Below, in pieces: positions 4,047 through 20,280 of a stretch of 64,000 nt of DNA. The DNA is taken from positions 310,001 to 374,000 of the forward strand of contig NZ_JANHDM010000002.1 in assembly GCF_024494685.1 (NCBI RefSeq). The letters run 5' to 3'. This stretch comes from Halorubrum rubrum (GTDB lineage Archaea > Halobacteriota > Halobacteria > Halobacteriales > Haloferacaceae). The stretch's first letter is position 1, and every line of letters starts with the position of its first letter. A program made the position numbers and the translations under genes. The notes beneath the pieces were generated by a model, which saw only the letters and a program-made list of their open reading frames with translations, was not told the origin of the DNA and made no database searches.

Positions 4047-5099
4047 TCACTCGGCCAGTCCGAACACGTCGCGGGGGTTCTCGTACACGACGGTGCGGAT
4101 GTCGTCGACGTCGATTCCGTAGCGGTACAGCTCGAAGATAGCCCGCTTCACCGCGTACGGGTCGGTCCGGAGCACGTTCGCGCAGTCGGTGTCGACGGTG
4201 ATCCGCTCGGGCCCGTACTCGTCGACGGCGTCGGCCACGTCGGCGGCGTCGACCCCGATCAGCCACGAGTGACCGATGGTGAAACTCAGGTAGCAGTCCG
4301 TCTCCTCCATCAGGTACGCCGTGTTGTTCGCGTCCGCGTGCGAGGCCACGATCCGCTCCTCGTCGAGGCCCGCGTCCGCCGCCGCCTCGACGTCCCGCTT
4401 TACCGCCTCCAGCGCCGGGTTCTCGCCGTCGAGGACCGGCTCCGCGCCGAGCCCCGCGTTCTTCTCGTAGCCGGGGGTCACGCCGAGGTCGTCGCGGTAC
4501 GCGCGTTTCGACTCGCCCGGCGTGTTCGGCGTGTGGAGGAGGACGGGGAGGTCGTGGTCGGCGGCGAGTTCCATCTGCGCTTGAACGACCGCCTGCTGTT
4601 CGTCGACGTCCCAGCGCTCGACGTGCTGGCTCGGCGTCACGCCCGTCTCGCCGACTGCGACGACCTCGTCGAGCGCGCAGTAGTCGTCCATCGCCGCCAG
4701 CAGCCCCTCGGGGTTCTCGATCCGGACGCCGGTGTGGACGCCGAGCCCGAGTTTCGCCTCGAAGAAGTGGTTGCGCTCGATGGCCTCCCGGCGGTTGATC
4801 GCGTCGTCCCACAGGAAGCGGACATCGCTCGCCTCCACGGGCTTGTACGGGGTCCAGTGGTACCCCGACGACACCATCAGCATGGATCGACATCCGGAAA
4901 GCGCGTACCGCTCGCGGTCCGACCACGAGAGCGTGTGGGCGTGGTTGTGCGGGTCGATCCACGGGAGGTTCAGGAGTTCGGAGGGGAGGTCGGGAGCCGA
5001 CCCGTCGAGGTACGCGGCGTCGGTCGGTCGCCTCGTCGGATCGGATGCGGAGTCGGCGGCTGTGGACGGATCGGATGTGGGCGGGTCGGACGCGGGCAT
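4047..5099 (-). CDS. TatD-like metal-dependent hydrolase (350 aa)
   Basis: Amidohydrolase-superfamily TIM-barrel protein of the TatD/PHP-like group. Metal-ligand signatures in order: HNH at residues 51-53 (in DPHNHAH), a Glu in VAVGETGV, His in LLHTPN, His in ASHADANN, and Asp in VDTDC. The first 40 residues are a low-complexity Pro/Ser/Asp extension that may not be part of the folded protein. Substrate unknown; classical TatD enzymes are DNases, but this subgroup differs. It is divergent from the BNR-repeat gene, and a TTTACG-N4-GGTAAA palindrome lies between them, the same operator as at the amidohydrolase and CoA-transferase promoters. Confidence 0.75.
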   Translation of the reverse strand: MPASDPPTSDPSTAADSASDPTRRPTDAAYLDGSAPDLPSELLNLPWIDPHNHAHTLSWSDRERYALSGCRSMLMVSSGYHWTPYKPVEASDVRFLWDDAINRREAIERNHFFEAKLGLGVHTGVRIENPEGLLAAMDDYCALDEVVAVGETGVTPSQHVERWDVDEQQAVVQAQMELAADHDLPVLLHTPNTPGESKRAYRDDLGVTPGYEKNAGLGAEPVLDGENPALEAVKRDVEAAADAGLDEERIVASHADANNTAYLMEETDCYLSFTIGHSWLIGVDAADVADAVDEYGPERITVDTDCANVLRTDPYAVKRAIFELYRYGIDVDDIRTVVYENPRDVFGLAE

Positions 5100-5132: not shown

Positions 5133-5148
5133 TTTACGGCTTGGTAAA
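5133..5148. promoter_or_regulatory. putative TetR operator, copy 1
   Basis: TTTACG-GCTT-GGTAAA, a 16-bp inverted repeat differing at one base from the perfect TTTACC-N4-GGTAAA copies at 15226 and 17457. It lies in the 83-bp gap between the divergent TatD-like gene and BNR-protein gene, at the place of their promoter elements (the AAACTTTAGT box at about 5148-5157 is 28 bp before the 5183 ATG). A bound regulator here would block both promoters. The TetR protein encoded at 15339 is the obvious candidate, by inference. Confidence 0.6.
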
Positions 5149-5182: not shown

Positions 5183-6271
5183 ATGACACTTTTGATCGGG
5201 ACAGACGAGGGCCTGTACCGAGCCGACGACGTACCGTTCGACCGCGACGAGCTCGAACCCGTTCTCGACTGCGGCGTGGTCACCGCCGTGAAGTCGTGGG
5301 ACCACACCGAGGGCGTGTTCGTCGCCTCTTCGACGGGCGCGTACCGCTCGGTCGACGGCGGCGACACGTGGACGGACCTGGAGGTTCCCCTCGGCGACCG
5401 CTTCTGGCACGCCGGGCAGAGCGAGGTGTGGGCGATCCTCGCGACCGCGGACGGCGCGCTGTACGCCGGCACCAACGATCCCTACCTCTTCCGCTCGGTC
5501 GACGGCGGCGACACGTGGGCCGAACAGAAAGGGTTCCGTGAACTCCCCTCTCGAGGCCACTGGGAGTCGCCGATCGACCCGCACTACGCTCGCCTTCGCG
5601 CGCTCGAAACGGTCCCCGGCCGCCCGGACCACCTCATCGCGGGCGTCGAGGCCGGCGGGATCCACGTCAGCCGCGACGGCGGCCGCACCTGGTCCGACCA
5701 CCGCGACGCCATCGTCGACGACGTTCACCAGGTGCTCCCGATCTCCGAGGACGTCTGGCTGGCGGCGACCGGCTACCTCGACCACGACCTGGAGAACCTC
5801 GGGCTCGGCCACGCGGTCGGCGAGGGCGGCCTCTGGCGGACGACGGACGCCGGCGAGTCCTGGACCCGGATCGACGCCGGCAACGACTTCTCGTACGTCC
5901 GGCGCGTGTTCGTCCACGACGGCCGGGTGATCTTCTGTGGCGGCGAGGAGGCACCCCCGGCGTGGGTGAACGACGACCACGAGGTCGCGCTGTTCGAGTC
6001 GACGAACTTCGGGCGCGACTTCGAGCGCGTCCCGTTCCCCGGCGAGCCCCACGAGATGATCGAGACGTGGGCGGTCCACGACGGCGACCTGGTCTGCGGC
6101 TCCGGGCTCTTCGACGTCCCCGACCAGCGCGACGACGTCGAGGGGCGGATCATGCGCCGCGTCGACGGCGAAGGCGACGGAGGGACCACCGACGGCGGGA
6201 CGGACGGCGGCCCGACCTACGAGACGGTCGGCCGCGTCGACGCGAACGTCAGCCGGATCGAGGTGGTGTGA
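5183..6271 (+). CDS. BNR/Asp-box repeat beta-propeller protein (362 aa)
   Basis: Four clear Asp-box (BNR) motifs of the type S-x-D-x-G-x-T-W: YRSVDGGDTW, FRSVDGGDTW, HVSRDGGRTW and WRTTDAGESW, plus a degenerate one near STNFGRDF, as in sialidase/VPS10-like propellers. No signal peptide is seen, so it is probably cytoplasmic. A TATA-like box 28 bp upstream fits a leaderless mRNA starting at 5183; an earlier in-frame ATG at 5141 would lie inside the promoter and is rejected. The DoxX-like gene follows with no spacing. Enzymatic activity cannot be read from the propeller alone. Confidence 0.75.
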   Translation: MTLLIGTDEGLYRADDVPFDRDELEPVLDCGVVTAVKSWDHTEGVFVASSTGAYRSVDGGDTWTDLEVPLGDRFWHAGQSEVWAILATADGALYAGTNDPYLFRSVDGGDTWAEQKGFRELPSRGHWESPIDPHYARLRALETVPGRPDHLIAGVEAGGIHVSRDGGRTWSDHRDAIVDDVHQVLPISEDVWLAATGYLDHDLENLGLGHAVGEGGLWRTTDAGESWTRIDAGNDFSYVRRVFVHDGRVIFCGGEEAPPAWVNDDHEVALFESTNFGRDFERVPFPGEPHEMIETWAVHDGDLVCGSGLFDVPDQRDDVEGRIMRRVDGEGDGGTTDGGTDGGPTYETVGRVDANVSRIEVV

Positions 6272-6703
6272 ATGGCCGACGAGACGGACTCCGAGTCCGC
6301 CGACGTCGCCGGGGACGACCCCGGCCGCGACGCCCCCTCGCTCCTCGGGCGGTCGCTGTACGGCGGCGTCCTCGCGTACATGGCGATTGACGGGTTCAAG
6401 AACAACGACAAGCGCGTCGCGGTCGCCGAGGAGAAGGGGGTCCCGATGCCGGCGGTCACGGTCCCGTTCGTCACCGGGATGCTGTTCGTCGCCAACCTCG
6501 GGATCGTCCTCTGGCGGCTCCCGCGGGCGGCCGCCGGCGCGCTGGTCGTCTTCTTCCTGGGGACGACGCCCGCGATCCACGACTTCTGGAACATGGAGGG
6601 GAAGGAGCGTCAGAGCAACGAGATCAACTTCCTGAAGAACCTGGCGCTGCTCGGTGCCGCGTTCGTCTTCCTCGACGCCGCGAGCGAGGGCGACGAGGAG
6701 TGA
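6272..6703 (+). CDS. DoxX-like membrane protein (143 aa)
   Basis: Four hydrophobic segments follow an acidic 25-residue N-terminus, with RSLYGGVLAYMAIDGFKN and later PAIHDFWNMEG, a pattern of DoxX/DoxD-like membrane proteins. The ATG directly follows the TGA of the BNR-repeat gene, so the two are certainly cotranscribed and probably translationally coupled. The last codons (encoding EGDEE) and the stop are contained in the first unit of a 27-bp tandem repeat that continues downstream. Confidence 0.65.
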   Translation: MADETDSESADVAGDDPGRDAPSLLGRSLYGGVLAYMAIDGFKNNDKRVAVAEEKGVPMPAVTVPFVTGMLFVANLGIVLWRLPRAAAGALVVFFLGTTPAIHDFWNMEGKERQSNEINFLKNLALLGAAFVFLDAASEGDEE

Positions 6704-13464: not shown

Positions 13465-13764
13465 CTACTCGGCCTCGAACTCGTGCGTCAGTTCGCCGAC
13501 GCCCTCGACGCCGATCGTGACGCTGTCGCCGTCGCCGAGCAGCACCGGCGGATCGCGGTAGACGCCGACGCCGGGCGGCGTCCCGGTGAACACGAGGTCA
13601 CCGGGTTCGAGCGTGAACGCCCGGCTACAGAAGGCGACCAACTCGTCGACTCCGAATATCAGGTTCGACGTCGACGACTCCTGGAGGCGCTCGCCGTTGA
13701 TCTCGGCGAATATCGCGAGGTCGTGTGGGTCGTCAATCTCGTCGGTCGCGATGCCGCTCCAGGG
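13465..13764 (-). pseudogene. C-terminal remnant of a fumarylacetoacetate hydrolase family enzyme
   Basis: The last about 99 codons match the C-terminal half of FAH/acylpyruvase-type proteins: DDPHDLAIFAEINGERLQES, STSNLIFGVDELVAF, and TLEPGDLVFTGTPPGVG. The N-terminal half with the metal-binding E-x-E is missing. Upstream of residue PWSG the reading is unrelated, and the next gene is the amidohydrolase whose stop is only 72 bp away. No plausible start codon or promoter precedes it. It is best read as a truncated relic of an enzyme once in this catabolic cluster. Confidence 0.75.
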
Positions 13765-13835: not shown

Positions 13836-15191
13836 TTACGGGTCGATCCCCGCCTCGTCGATGAGGCGCTCGCCGGAGGCGACGAACCGGTCGAACTCCT
13901 CGTGGACCTTCGGGTTCGTCAGCTCGCCGTCGCGTTTGACGACCTCGCCGTCGACGAGGACGGTATCGATGTGCGAGGGGTCCGACTGGAACACCACCGT
14001 CTGGACGGGCGAGTGCGAGGGGGCGGTCATGAAGTCGGAGGCGTCGAAGAGGACGAGGTCGGCCCGCTTGCCGGGCGTTATCGTGCCGATGTCGTCTTCC
14101 ATGCCGAGCGCCTTCGCGCCCTCGATCGTCGCCATCTCGAGGGTGTCGCGGGCGGAGACGCTCACCTCGGTGACCTCCTCGTCGCCCTCCAGGACCGCCT
14201 GGTTGTCGAACATGCGCTGGAGTTGCATCCCGATCCGCATCTGGCTGCCCATGTCGCCGCTGACGTTCGAGCAGACGTCGACACCCCACGTCGGGCGGCC
14301 GCCCGCCTCGAGCACCTTCCCGGTGACGGGGATGCCGTGGCCCATCTGCATCTCGACCTCCGGCGTCGACGAGAAGGAGACTCCCTGCTCGACGGCGTGG
14401 TCGACGTCCTCCTGTGCGAAGTGGTTCCCGTGGGCGACGTTGACGTCGGGGCCGAGCACGTCCTCCAGACAGCCGAATCCCTGGTAGTCCCCGCCGTAGA
14501 CCGAGGAGGGCCACAGCGCCGCCCCCATGTGGATCGTCGAGAGTACCCCCAGCTCCCGCGCCAGTTCCAGGTCGCCGCGGGCGGTCTCGTCCGTACAGAA
14601 GTCCGGTCCGCGGAGGCCGAGCGCCAGGCTGAGCAGGTCGTCGTCCCGAACGTGTTCGTCGTGGAGGTCGCGGATCTTCCCCTCCGGGAGGCCGACGTCG
14701 CTCTCGTACCACCACTTCGCCGCGTCGTCGCCCGGCGGGCCGTAGGCGTACACCGCGCGCAGCCCGGCGTCCTTCAGCGCGTCGACGGCGCGTTCGCCGT
14801 GTTCGAGCGTGTTGGGGTACGACCAGTCCAGGGCCGTGGTCGTTCCGGTGTGGAGCTTCTCGAACGCGCCGAAGAGGCCGCCGAGGTACATGTCCTCGGG
14901 TCGATAGAGCCCGGTGATGTTGCCGAGCATGTGATCGAAGTACTCGCCCATGAGCGACCAGTCCCCGGCGATTCCCCTGACCTGGGTCTGGGCGAGGTGG
15001 ATGTGCGAGTCGACGAATCCGGGGACGACGACGTGATCGGACGCGTCGATCTCCTCGGCGTTCGACGCCGACAGTCCGGGACCCACCTCGACGATCTCGC
15101 CGTCCTCGATCAGGACGTCGGCCTCGTCGAACTCGCCTACGTCGGGGTCGAGCGAGACCACGGTCCCGTTTCGCACGATCGTTTGTGTCAT
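13836..15191 (-). CDS. amidohydrolase, cytosine/SAH-deaminase-like (451 aa)
   Basis: Amidohydrolase superfamily member of the group containing 5-methylthioadenosine/S-adenosylhomocysteine deaminases and triazine hydrolases. PGFVDSHIHLAQ carries the HxH metal ligands near residues 60-64. Further ligands are likely in TIHMGA and NVAHGNHF, and the C-terminal composite domain has TPGKRADLVLFD. Substrate not determinable. Start ATG at 15191; the open frame upstream covers the promoter. A perfect TTTACC-N4-GGTAAA palindrome sits 35 bp upstream, next to an AACTTTTACT TATA-like box, so control by the adjacent TetR protein is likely. An FAH-family remnant follows downstream. Confidence 0.8.
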   Translation of the reverse strand: MTQTIVRNGTVVSLDPDVGEFDEADVLIEDGEIVEVGPGLSASNAEEIDASDHVVVPGFVDSHIHLAQTQVRGIAGDWSLMGEYFDHMLGNITGLYRPEDMYLGGLFGAFEKLHTGTTTALDWSYPNTLEHGERAVDALKDAGLRAVYAYGPPGDDAAKWWYESDVGLPEGKIRDLHDEHVRDDDLLSLALGLRGPDFCTDETARGDLELARELGVLSTIHMGAALWPSSVYGGDYQGFGCLEDVLGPDVNVAHGNHFAQEDVDHAVEQGVSFSSTPEVEMQMGHGIPVTGKVLEAGGRPTWGVDVCSNVSGDMGSQMRIGMQLQRMFDNQAVLEGDEEVTEVSVSARDTLEMATIEGAKALGMEDDIGTITPGKRADLVLFDASDFMTAPSHSPVQTVVFQSDPSHIDTVLVDGEVVKRDGELTNPKVHEEFDRFVASGERLIDEAGIDP

Positions 15192-15225: not shown

Positions 15226-15241
15226 TTTACCGGGCGGTAAA
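15226..15241. promoter_or_regulatory. putative TetR operator, copy 2
   Basis: Perfect inverted repeat TTTACC-GGGC-GGTAAA in the amidohydrolase promoter, overlapping the position of its BRE/TATA elements. A second half-site-like GGGCGGTAAC follows at about 15252-15261. The divergent tetR promoter (TATTATGTG near 15310) is about 70 bp away, so the regulator could also sense its own locus. Confidence 0.7.
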
Positions 15242-15338: not shown

Positions 15339-16049
15339 ATGAGCGAATCGTCTGGCGGATCGGCGGGCGAGTCCGAGGAGTCCGCCTCTGGGGGATCCGC
15401 GTCCGAGGAGTCCGCCTCTGGGGGATCCGCGTCCGAGGAGTCCGCCGCCGCCGCGGTTTCCTCCAAGGACACGAAGGAGGTGATCATGGAGGCGACCTTC
15501 CGTGCGCTGAGCAAGCACGGATACACGGACCTCCGGATGCGCGACATCGGCGAGGAGATGGATCTCACGCGGCAGGTGATCCACTACCACTTCGACGGGA
15601 AGTACGACCTCATGTCGTCGTTTCTCGAACACATCATCGACCAGTACGAGGGGAGCGTGGTCGTCGAACACGACGCCGACCCTCGGACCGAACTGCGCGC
15701 GCGTGTGGATCAGTGTCTCTTCGGCCCCGAGTTCGGGGCGTTCGACCACTGGGACCGGATGAAGGTGTACCACGAGCTGTACACGCAGGCACAGAACGAC
15801 GGGGAGCACCGCGAGGTGTTCAACGATCACTACGATCGAATTCGCGGCAGCATCGTCGAGGTCGTCGAAGAGGGGATCGAGGAGGGCGTCTTCCGCGACG
15901 TCGACGCGGAGCGGATGGGCCAGCTGGTGACCGACGTGATCCACGCCGCCCGCGGCCGGCGGATCTCGCTCGGCCACGAGGACGCCCCCGAGGAGGCGCG
16001 GCAAGCGATAGACGAGTTCGTTCTCGAGTCGTTAGAGCGGACCGAGTAG
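15339..16049 (+). CDS. TetR/AcrR-family transcriptional regulator (236 aa)
   Basis: N-terminal helix-turn-helix around residues 46-92: TKEVIMEATFRALSKHGY, then TDLRMRDIGEEMDLTRQVIH and HYHFDGKYDLM, the classic TetR pattern ending with the Y-x-x-F-x-x-K helix. The C-terminal ligand-binding domain is all helical. The first 40 residues are a Ser/Glu/Gly repeat encoded by a 30-bp DNA repeat (about 2.5 copies at 15375-15449). It lies between the amidohydrolase and CoA-transferase genes, and TTTACC-N4-GGTAAA palindromes occur at both of their promoters, so it probably represses them until a pathway intermediate or CoA ester binds. Confidence 0.85.
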   Translation: MSESSGGSAGESEESASGGSASEESASGGSASEESAAAAVSSKDTKEVIMEATFRALSKHGYTDLRMRDIGEEMDLTRQVIHYHFDGKYDLMSSFLEHIIDQYEGSVVVEHDADPRTELRARVDQCLFGPEFGAFDHWDRMKVYHELYTQAQNDGEHREVFNDHYDRIRGSIVEVVEEGIEEGVFRDVDAERMGQLVTDVIHAARGRRISLGHEDAPEEARQAIDEFVLESLERTE

Positions 16050-16072: not shown

Positions 16073-17326
16073 TTACTCCCCGTCCTCGTCGGAGTCGGTG
16101 GAGTCGCCGAACACGCCCAGCTCGGCGAGCCGGTCGATCTCGGCCTCCGAATAGCCGTGCTCGCGGAACACCTCGCGGTTGTGCTCGCCGAGCAGCGGCG
16201 GCGGGAGATCGAAGCCGCTGTCGGCGTTGCGGAACTTGAGCGGGTGTTCGATCACCGGCACCTCGCCGAGTTCGGGGTGATCGATCTCGGTGATGGTCCC
16301 CCGAGCCTCGACCTGCGGGCTTTCGAGTGCCTCCTCGACGCTGTAGACGGGGCCGGCGGGCACGCCGGCGTCCTCCGCGATGACTTCGATCCACTCGTCC
16401 GTCGTCCCGTCGGCGAGGGTGGCTTCGATCTCCGCCTCCAGCTCGTCGAGGTGCTCGACGCGATCGGCGTTCATCTCGAAGCGGTCGTCCTCGGGAAGGT
16501 CCGGACGATCGAGCGCCTCACAGAGTTCGCCCCAGAGCTTCTCGTTGAGGATACAGATGTTGATGAACCCGTCTTTCGTCTCGAACGTCTGATACGGCGC
16601 GAGGACGGGGTCTTTCGTCCCCATCCGTTTCGTCTCCTCGCCCGCGAAGACCATCCCGGCCTGTTTGGTGAGCCACGGAAGCGTGGCCTCCAACATGCCG
16701 AGGTCGATGTACTCGCCCTCACCGGTCCGTTCCCGTCGATAGAGGGCGGTCGTCGCGCCGAAGGCCGCCCACATCGCCGTGATCAGGTCCGTCATCGGAA
16801 GGCCGACCTTCACCGGCTGGCGGTCCGCCTCGCCCGTGACGCTCATGATCCCGCTCATCCCCTGGATGAGGAGGTCGTAGCCGGATCGCTCGCGCCACGG
16901 TCCGGTCTGACCGAACGCCGAGATCGCGAGGTAGATCAGGTCTTCGTTGTGGTCGATGAGCGTGTCGTAGTCGACGTCGAGTCGCTCCGCGGTCCCCGGA
17001 CGAAAGTTCTGGACGAAGACGTCCGTCTCCTCGACGAGTTCGTACAGCGCCTCCTTCGCGTCCGGATTCTTCAAGTCGAGTTCGAGGCTCTTCTTGCCGT
17101 AGCTCAACGTCCAGTAGTACGGCGATTCCCCTTTGATGAACGGCGGGCCGGAGTGCCGGACGGCGTCGCCGTATCCCGGTTGCTCGATCTTGACGACCTC
17201 CGCCCCCTGGTTCGCTAACATCGCCGAGCAGAACCCGCCGGTGACGAAGGTGGAGAGGTCGAGGACGGTGACACCCTCGAGGATCCTGTCGGAGCCAGAG
17301 GGAGCGGATCCATACCCTTCGGTCAT
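16073..17326 (-). CDS. family III CoA transferase (CaiB/BaiF type, 417 aa)
   Basis: Transfers CoA between carboxylic acids; family III enzymes form an acyl-aspartyl intermediate. Recognisable segments are the N-terminal GVTVLDLSTFVTGGFCS, EVVKIEQPGYGDAVR, FRPGTAERLDVDY, SAFGQTGPWRERSGYDLL, and YIDLGMLEATLPWL, which contains the expected catalytic Asp. Length is normal. The acid substrate is unknown. Its ATG overlaps the TGA of an 18-codon upstream ORF. A perfect TTTACC-N4-GGTAAA palindrome 130 bp upstream suggests TetR control. It borders the replication origin. Confidence 0.9.
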   Translation of the reverse strand: MTEGYGSAPSGSDRILEGVTVLDLSTFVTGGFCSAMLANQGAEVVKIEQPGYGDAVRHSGPPFIKGESPYYWTLSYGKKSLELDLKNPDAKEALYELVEETDVFVQNFRPGTAERLDVDYDTLIDHNEDLIYLAISAFGQTGPWRERSGYDLLIQGMSGIMSVTGEADRQPVKVGLPMTDLITAMWAAFGATTALYRRERTGEGEYIDLGMLEATLPWLTKQAGMVFAGEETKRMGTKDPVLAPYQTFETKDGFINICILNEKLWGELCEALDRPDLPEDDRFEMNADRVEHLDELEAEIEATLADGTTDEWIEVIAEDAGVPAGPVYSVEEALESPQVEARGTITEIDHPELGEVPVIEHPLKFRNADSGFDLPPPLLGEHNREVFREHGYSEAEIDRLAELGVFGDSTDSDEDGE

Positions 17327-17379
17327 CGTTTCATCTCCGCCGTCGGTTCTTCCTCGTTCGTCGATTCCTTCCCGTTCAT
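17323..17379 (-). CDS. possible 18-aa leader peptide coupled to the CoA transferase
   Basis: The reading MNGKESTNEEEPTAEMKR ends in a TGA that shares bases with the CoA-transferase ATG (ATGA). A GGAGG sequence lies 10 bp before its own ATG, while the CoA transferase has no such site. A still shorter ORF (17376-17411, 11 codons plus stop) ends in an ATGA overlap with this one. Translation of such short ORFs is unproven; they may act in translational coupling. Confidence 0.3.
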   Translation of the reverse strand: MNGKESTNEEEPTAEMKR

Positions 17380-17456
17380 CGAGACATCCCCTCCGATCCG
17401 TATCGTGTCATCACATTCTACGTGTGGACTCGTACCATAATGTATTCCACCGTTTG

Positions 17457-17472
17457 TTTACCGGTTGGTAAA
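17457..17472. promoter_or_regulatory. putative TetR operator, copy 3
   Basis: Perfect inverted repeat TTTACC-GGTT-GGTAAA upstream of the CoA-transferase transcription unit, directly upstream of a TATA-like element (TACATTATGG on the minus strand, about 17439-17449). Same half-sites and spacing as at 15226. Confidence 0.7.
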
Positions 17473-17520
17473 TCCATCGGCGACAGCCGTGATGAGTATC
17501 GGCTCATCCTCGTTCTCCAC

Positions 17521-17665
17521 CTCGCCTCTCTCCATCTCGCTTCTCTCCACCTCGCCTCTCTCCATCTCGCTTCTCTCCACCTCGCCTCTCTCCATCTCGC
17601 TTCTCTCCACCTCGCCTCTCTCCATCTCGCTTCTCTCCACCTCGCCTCTCTCCATCTCGCCTCTC
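17521..17665. repeat. 15-bp polypyrimidine tandem repeat (about 9.7 units) beside the origin
   Basis: Alternating units CTCGCCTCTCTCCAT and CTCGCTTCTCTCCAC form a 30-bp higher-order repeat present four times plus a partial fifth. The strand is about 90% pyrimidine. ORFs on both strands across it are products of the repeat (for example LHLAS repeated) and not genes. It lies immediately left of the first ORB box. Confidence 0.92.
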
Positions 17666-18507: not shown

Positions 18508-20280
18508 ATGGACGAAGGCGAGCACACGTCGGAGGTCAACGACGACACCACACCGGCCGAGAGCGACGGATCGGGCGACGACGCATCCGATGATAGCGAC
18601 GGTCCGACGGAATCGCCATCACCGGCATCTCCATCGGCACCGTCGTTGGATCGAACCGAATCGGACCGAACCGAACCCAACTCCGACGCACACGACGAGA
18701 GCGGCTCCGAGTTCGCTTCCGGCAACGATGTCGACATGGACCCCGTCGCGTCCGACGATTCGGATCGAACTCCCGAAGCCGGATCCGAAACGTCGGGGCT
18801 CGGGAACGGCGGTCGCGACCGCTCGTCGCCCGACGTCGACTTCGACGGCGTCGTCCTCGACGACGGTGACGACGACAATCAGGGACTGTTCGACGACCTT
18901 CTCTCCGGCGAGCCGATATTCGAGAACAAGGAGGTCCTCCGTCCGTCGTACACTCCCCACGAGCTCCCCCACCGAAACGACCAGATCAACCGGATGGCGA
19001 CGATCCTCGTCTCCGCGCTCCGCGGTGAGACTCCCTCCAACATCCTCATCTACGGGAAAACGGGCACCGGCAAGACCGCCTCGGCGAAGTTCGTCTCGCA
19101 AGAGCTCGAATCGACCTCTCAAAAATACGACGTTCCCTGCGAGGTCGAGTACATCAACTGCGAGGTGACCGACACGCAGTATCGTGTCCTCGCCCAGCTC
19201 GCGAACACGTTCATCGAGGAGAACCAGACCGTCATCGCCGACCGGCTCGCCCGGCTCGAGAAGCTCCGGGCGGACGCGCGGGAAAAGACGGCGGATGCGA
19301 CCCAGGATGCCGCCGCGCTCGCCGACACCGAGTTCGATTCGATCGCCGAACTGGACGACCGAATCGACACGCTGGAAGCCGACGCCGAGGAGATGGAGGA
19401 GGTCCCGATGACGGGGTGGCCGACCGACCGCGTCTACTCGACGTTCTTCGAGGCGGTCGACTACCACGAGCGCGTGGTCGTGATCATGCTCGACGAGATC
19501 GACAAGCTCGTCGAGAAGAGCGGCGACGACACCCTGTATAACCTCTCGCGGATGAACTCCGAGCTCGACAACTCCCGCATCTCGATCATGGGGATCTCGA
19601 ACGACCTGAAGTTCACCGACTTCCTCGATCCGCGGGTCAAATCCAGCCTCGGCGAGGAGGAGATCGTCTTCCCGCCGTACGACGCGAACCAGCTCCGGGA
19701 CATCCTCCAGCACCGCGCCGACATCGCGTTCAAGGGAGACGCGCTCACCGACGACGTGATCCCGCTGTGTGCGGCCTTCGCCGCCCAGGAACACGGGGAC
19801 GCGCGTCGCGCGCTCGATCTCCTCCGGACCGCTGGCGAACTCGCGGAGCGCTCTCAGGCCGAGATCGTCGCCGAGAAGCACGTCCGACAGGCCCAGGACA
19901 AGATCGAGCTCGACCGCGTCGTCGAGGTCGTCCGAACCCTGCCGACTCAGAGCAAGATCGTCCTGTTCGCCGTGATCCTCCTCGAGAAGAACGGCGTCCA
20001 CAACATCAACACCGGCGAGGTGTTCAACATCTACAAGCGGCTCTGTGAGGAGATCGACGCCGACGTGCTCACCCAGCGGCGCGTCACCGACCTCATCAGC
20101 GAGCTCGACATGCTGGGGATCGTCAACGCGGTCGTCGTCTCGAAGGGACGGTACGGTCGAACCAAGGAGATGGGCCTCTCCGTCCCCGTCGAAGAGACCG
20201 AGGCGGTCCTCCTGTCAGACTCGCGGCTCGGCGACATCGAGAACGCACAGCCGTTCGTTCAGGCCCGCTTCGACAACTGA
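18508..20280 (+). CDS. orc1: Orc1/Cdc6 replication initiator (590 aa)
   Basis: AAA+ initiator that binds ORB boxes and loads the MCM helicase. A highly acidic, Ser/Asp-rich N-terminal extension (about 1-130) precedes the conserved domain starting LLSGEPIFENKEVLRPSYTP. Walker A GKTGTGKT is at 183-190, Walker B VVIMLDEIDKL is near 322-332, and a C-terminal winged helix follows (about 490-590, including QRRVTDLISELDMLGIV). A coiled-coil-like insert (LEKLRADAREKTADATQ) lies between. It sits directly downstream of the ORB/AT-rich region described above, so it is the origin-linked Orc1 rather than an accessory paralogue. Confidence 0.95.
   Translation: MDEGEHTSEVNDDTTPAESDGSGDDASDDSDGPTESPSPASPSAPSLDRTESDRTEPNSDAHDESGSEFASGNDVDMDPVASDDSDRTPEAGSETSGLGNGGRDRSSPDVDFDGVVLDDGDDDNQGLFDDLLSGEPIFENKEVLRPSYTPHELPHRNDQINRMATILVSALRGETPSNILIYGKTGTGKTASAKFVSQELESTSQKYDVPCEVEYINCEVTDTQYRVLAQLANTFIEENQTVIADRLARLEKLRADAREKTADATQDAAALADTEFDSIAELDDRIDTLEADAEEMEEVPMTGWPTDRVYSTFFEAVDYHERVVVIMLDEIDKLVEKSGDDTLYNLSRMNSELDNSRISIMGISNDLKFTDFLDPRVKSSLGEEEIVFPPYDANQLRDILQHRADIAFKGDALTDDVIPLCAAFAAQEHGDARRALDLLRTAGELAERSQAEIVAEKHVRQAQDKIELDRVVEVVRTLPTQSKIVLFAVILLEKNGVHNINTGEVFNIYKRLCEEIDADVLTQRRVTDLISELDMLGIVNAVVVSKGRYGRTKEMGLSVPVEETEAVLLSDSRLGDIENAQPFVQARFDN

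Follow-up and report, generated by a model that had tools for sequence, protein, structure and literature searches.

A palindromic operator shared by three promoters and its probable TetR-family binder in Halorubrum rubrum and related haloarchaea

Introduction

The closest described system to the locus studied here is FadR of Sulfolobus acidocaldarius, a TetR-family protein that recognizes a 16-bp dyad motif at four genomic sites and represses a cluster of CoA-metabolism genes (PMC6449355; PDB 6EL2, 6EN8). Our locus, which lies in a stretch of 64,000 nucleotides of the Halorubrum rubrum genome (the window), is similar in that it combines an archaeal TetR-family protein with a 16-bp dyad, only four genomic sites, and a local CoA-metabolism cluster with several promoters. 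It differs in the genes concerned: FadR governs lipases and beta-oxidation in response to acyl-CoA, whereas the predicted regulon of the window TetR takes in an amidohydrolase, a fumarylacetoacetate hydrolase (FAH)-like protein, a family III CoA-transferase, a thiolase, a TatD-like hydrolase, a BNR protein, and a DoxX-like protein, which is not the set of lipases and beta-oxidation enzymes that marks a FadR-type regulon. The window TetR matches FadR weakly (phmmer E = 0.0045 to 6el2), far below its match to the Haloarcula marismortui TetR protein 3crj (2e-26). On present evidence, the window TetR appears to be no FadR ortholog, and FadR is the best working analogy for its predicted mechanism.

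The H. marismortui protein (PDB 3CRJ) is the closest solved structure (31% identity, TM 0.83-0.84) and has the recognition helix STAAVHYYYD where the window TetR has TRQVIHYHFD; the PDB entries returned included no DNA complex or target for it. The literature searched, which takes in few subscription journals, yielded FadR of Sulfolobus and neither a haloarchaeal TetR operator or regulon nor this enzyme set. Another point of comparison is EilR, a bacterial protein whose operator differs from the palindrome described below. Its complex with eilO DNA (PDB 5VL9) presents the TetR fold in a DNA-bound structure, at 19-21% identity to the window TetR.

Results

A rare palindrome in the window and the genome

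The original prediction held that the palindrome TTTACC-N4-GGTAAA occurs perfectly at 15226 and 17457 and with one mismatch at 5133, and a scan of the window found it at exactly these places. Profile matches likewise agreed with the names given to the adjoining genes (amidohydrolase, family III CoA-transferase, TatD-like and, weakly, BNR-like) and with a TetR gene between the first two sites (TetR_N, 5e-09 at 15339-16049). The features are as follows.

4047..5099, minus strand: TatD-like metal-dependent hydrolase (1.2e-13)
5133..5148: putative operator O3, TTTACGGCTTGGTAAA (reverse TTTACCAAGCCGTAAA), 33 nt from the TatD-like gene and 34 nt from the BNR gene, which diverge from it
5183..6271, plus strand: BNR/Sortilin-like beta-propeller protein (weak match)
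6272..6703, plus strand: DoxX-like membrane protein, immediately downstream of BNR
13483..13752, minus strand: remnant of an FAH-like gene (C-terminal residues 201-290 of 295) beside the intact amidohydrolase gene
13836..15191, minus strand: amidohydrolase of the PRK08204 subfamily, atrazine chlorohydrolase/deaminase-like (Amidohydro_1 5.8e-37; PRK08204 above cut-off)
15226..15241: putative operator O1, TTTACCGGGCGGTAAA, followed immediately by a TATA-like CTTTTAC and, after 34 nt, by the amidohydrolase ATG
15339..16049, plus strand: TetR-family regulator, the putative binder, with recognition helix LTRQVIHYHF and a low-complexity N-terminal extension
16073..17326, minus strand: family III CoA-transferase, formyl-CoA/succinyl-CoA transferase-like (7.2e-122)
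17457..17472: putative operator O2, TTTACCGGTTGGTAAA, before the CoA-transferase transcript, with 18 nt to a micro-ORF ATG as in relatives

The DoxX-like gene is probably cotranscribed with the BNR gene. Two tandem repeats with 30-bp units also lie in this region: one (15371-15446, 2.5 perfect copies) in the 5' end of tetR, where it encodes the low-complexity extension EESASGGSAS, and another (17514-17665, 5.1 copies, 99%) between the CoA-transferase operator and orc1/cdc6 at 18508.

Dinucleotide shuffles of the window gave a mean of 0.11 chance matches with up to two mismatches, and none of 100 shuffles reached four. A genome-wide scan allowing one mismatch, as the original prediction had proposed, returned not the many matches at chance frequency that would have spoken against it but four places in 3.2 Mb (3,227,153 bases), three of which are O1, O2, and O3; the pattern read backward as a control occurred at no place in the genome at this threshold. 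With two mismatches, the whole genome holds 14 places versus 9 for the reversed control, so such matches are noise, and we rejected these places as regulon members; inspecting their surroundings changed nothing. The fourth one-mismatch palindrome, TTTACCCCAGAGTAAA (G000:C4:40537-40552; L003:1501-1516), precedes by 32 bp the first codon of an ORF of about 137 amino acids that reads away from it. Since it lacks the core [A/G]NN[C/T] of the family, this palindrome is probably unrelated to the TetR regulon and might serve some other regulator as its operator.

Conservation of the sites and of the genes behind them

Orthologs of the window TetR with 62-95% identity were found on more than 60 contigs from Halorubrum, Natrinema, Natronococcus, Natronorubrum, Halobellus, Haloarcula, Haladaptatus, and other genera. 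On 64 contigs (1.21 Mb) that were picked through the TetR lying between O1 and O2, there are 51 perfect sites and 124 with at most one mismatch, whereas 25 letter-scrambled palindromes gave no perfect site on the same contigs and a mean of 0.32 (maximum 3) with at most one mismatch. Half-sites at spacings of 2, 3, 5, 6, or 7 were absent from the 64 contigs.

Across 148 genomes of the taxonomic family, a perfect site is present in 28 of the 46 with a TetR ortholog (threshold E<1e-80) versus 5 of the 102 without one (Fisher p=2.4e-13). Three of these 5 have cores (TAGA, CGAG, CAAG) off the consensus TTTACC[A/G]NN[C/T]GGTAAA, and some of the 18 ortholog-bearing genomes without a perfect site carry one-mismatch or TTGACC forms. 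A few genomes, Halorubrum coriense (L007) among them, keep the TetR with no operator within 10 kb; in L007 and in H. ezzemoulense (L067, TetR partial), the regulator stands as an orphan with neither operator sites nor regulon genes nearby.

In Halorubrum, Natrinema, Natronococcus, Haladaptatus, Haloarcula, Halobellus, and other genera, the sites recur before the same gene families. At the TatD/BNR promoters, the right half is mismatched as [C/T]GTAAA in nearly all loci, most commonly in the forms TTTACCAAGC[C/T]GTAAA or TTTACCAACCTGTAAA, and the mismatch at 5133 is therefore a conserved feature: Judged by this comparison, O3 is not a degraded copy but an asymmetric operator that is conserved and faces two genes.

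The typical order in Halorubrum is DoxX-BNR <- [site] -> TatD, then FAH <- amidohydrolase <- [site] TetR ->, then thiolase <- CoA-transferase <- [site], followed by orc1. The same TetR in Haloarcula and part of Halobellus adjoins sites before pirin and FAD oxidoreductase genes instead, an aldehyde dehydrogenase (ALDH) gene is added in some loci, and several Halorubrum genomes have extra sites in trans, far from TetR, between ALDH and ArsR-DUF7351 genes. We rejected the latter arrangement as a trans member in the window genome because the ArsR-DUF7351 protein was not found there at E<=1e-40. The window TatD-BNR-DoxX block is displaced and inverted relative to relatives, along with its Era-like GTPase, OapB, and OapC neighbors, which accounts for the 10-kb gap in the original prediction: The TatD/BNR and amidohydrolase operators are about 10 kb apart here versus 3.5-6 kb in relatives.

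The FAH-like gene, truncated in the window, is intact after the amidohydrolase gene in relatives (e.g., L006 and L008), and tblastn found no thiolase gene of the regulon type in the window. Going by gene content, the regulon is larger in relatives (FAH, thiolase, and DoxX; elsewhere pirin, FAD oxidoreductase, and ALDH) and reduced in the window. The family names suggest amide/deaminase-type hydrolysis, FAH-type C-C or enol hydrolysis, CoA transfer, and thiolysis. The proposal of a single regulon over three promoters gained support from rarity, linkage, co-occurrence, spacing, and the coupling of helix and half-site described below; as a catabolic program, it is reduced here, with FAH truncated and thiolase absent.

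Promoter geometry suggests repression

As claimed, the operators abut TATA-like elements, with CTTTTAC after the amidohydrolase operator and ACTTTAG after the BNR operator. In most loci, the amidohydrolase start lies 34 nt from its operator; where starts are clear, most BNR genes keep a distance of 31-34 nt and most TatD genes one of 32-33 nt, and the FAD oxidoreductase has 31 nt. At the CoA-transferase of Halorubrum, 17-18 nt separate the operator from the first ATG, and at pirin the spacing is 11-12 nt. Leaderless transcripts are common in haloarchaea. If leaderless starts are assumed, the amidohydrolase and BNR operators would sit over the BRE, just upstream of the TATA-like CTTTTA/ACTTTA, and the CoA-transferase and pirin operators would cover the expected TATA position. 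Operators over the BRE or over TATA predict occlusion of TBP/TFB and hence repression.

Many relatives also have a second, weaker box (TTAACC-N4-GGTCAA), decayed in the window, that overlaps the amidohydrolase TATA itself. Ahead of the CoA-transferase gene, Halorubrum relatives (L005, L008-L014, L020, L041) have a micro-ORF of mostly 11-12 codons, e.g., MRRLPTSDEVVR*, and up to 26. It starts 17-18 nt past the operator (14 in L041), and its stop forms ATGA/GTGA with the CoA-transferase start, an overlap that suggests translational coupling from a leaderless start. The window counterpart (17323-17438, minus strand) is broken (MVRVHT*), but a mini-ORF further along, MNGKESTNEEEPTAEMKR*, retains the overlap with the CoA-transferase start.

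The position of an operator directly upstream of a TATA-like element, as at the amidohydrolase and BNR promoters, would also suit a TetR protein that activates, or both activates and represses, by recruiting TBP/TFB from just upstream of the BRE; archaeal activators such as GvpE can act from there. The CoA-transferase and pirin operators, which overlap the expected TATA at their short distances to the start, and the second box over the amidohydrolase TATA of many relatives fit occlusion instead, and the best studied archaeal TetR, Sulfolobus FadR, represses (PMC6449355). Activation seems improbable to us.

Recognition helix and half-site point to the binder

With 36.2 bits to TetR_N PF00440 (curated cut-off 24), the window TetR has the N-terminal helix-turn-helix of its family, and it also matches TetR_C_6 (32.5 bits, cut-off 27). 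Its predicted structure comprises nine helices (mean pLDDT 82.5), with TetR proteins as the best PDB matches; the model has the all-helical TetR fold with helix 3 as recognition helix and a C-terminal ligand/dimer domain, and places Gln40 within this third helix (39-45). The helix TRQVIHYHF occurs only in the window TetR among the four TetR_N genes of the genome, and we rejected the other three as binders, their recognition helices being different.

All orthologs with Gln40 and a perfect-pattern site have TTTACC, and TTGACC occurs in no Gln-type locus with an otherwise perfect pattern. Where position 40 is Thr, Ser, or Pro, one or both halves read TTGACC in every distinct locus with a site (8/8). 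In three loci, Gln is followed by Leu rather than Val and TTTACC is retained, which implicates position 40 itself. In the tree, the non-Gln sequences fall into groups that branch early, and the pattern therefore reflects one or a few switches, few independent events; a Fisher value for this association overstates independence, as the loci were hand-counted and may stem from one or two events. The second, two-mismatch box of relatives contains a TTGACC half despite a Gln-type TetR.

That the half-site is TTGACC where Gln40 is replaced points to the window TetR as the binder. Because the palindromes accompany TetR relatives across haloarchaeal genera and covary with the recognition helix, the three copies in the window are almost certainly binding sites of the neighboring TetR-type repressor. 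A different regulator could be proposed, such as the ArsR-like DUF7347/DUF7351 protein, given that sites precede its own gene in several relatives (L018, L062, L089, L092, L095, L098). Most TetR-site loci lack such a gene nearby, however, the half-site letter tracks the TetR helix, and a search at E<=1e-40, run with no positive control, found no ArsR-DUF7351 relative in the window genome, so that we regard this binder as very unlikely. RNA hairpins or chance low-complexity matches, which inverted repeats with a 4-nt loop might bring to mind, deserve next to no credence: The shuffles and scrambled palindromes exclude chance, and we rejected the hairpin reading because compensatory pairing is absent (the letters of the half-sites hardly vary, and a mismatch persists across genera in the 5133 class) and the palindromes are placed at the expected transcript start or upstream of it.

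Discussion

We consider it highly probable that a dimer of the TetR protein encoded at 15339-16049 binds at 15226, 17457, and 5133 and represses the amidohydrolase, CoA-transferase, TatD-like, and BNR-DoxX genes by occupying BRE/TATA, with a ligand releasing it. In this mechanism, the dimer would occupy TTTACC-N4-GGTAAA at the three positions and cover the BRE/TATA region, TBP/TFB would be shut out, and the genes would stay repressed until a small ligand, probably a pathway substrate, a CoA-thioester, or a ring-cleavage intermediate, frees the DNA of TetR. The enzymes might act as one pathway of amide hydrolysis, FAH-type C-C hydrolysis, CoA activation, and thiolysis.

On a broader scale, we see about an even chance that the operator of one haloarchaeal TetR lineage persisted through a rebuilding of the regulon (amidohydrolase/FAH/CoA-transferase/thiolase/TatD/BNR versus pirin/FAD oxidoreductase/ALDH), and that residue 40 (Gln versus Thr/Ser/Pro) tracks base 3 of the half-site (T versus G) as a natural specificity switch.

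As far as genome comparison can tell, this is a well-defined new regulon under a kind of regulation, the TetR type, that is itself already known. It offers a defined operator, regulator, and gene set for many haloarchaea, including culturable Haloarcula and Halorubrum, as well as a one-residue prediction of DNA specificity (position 40) for an archaeal TetR, and its coregulated enzymes may form an undescribed catabolic or detoxifying route.
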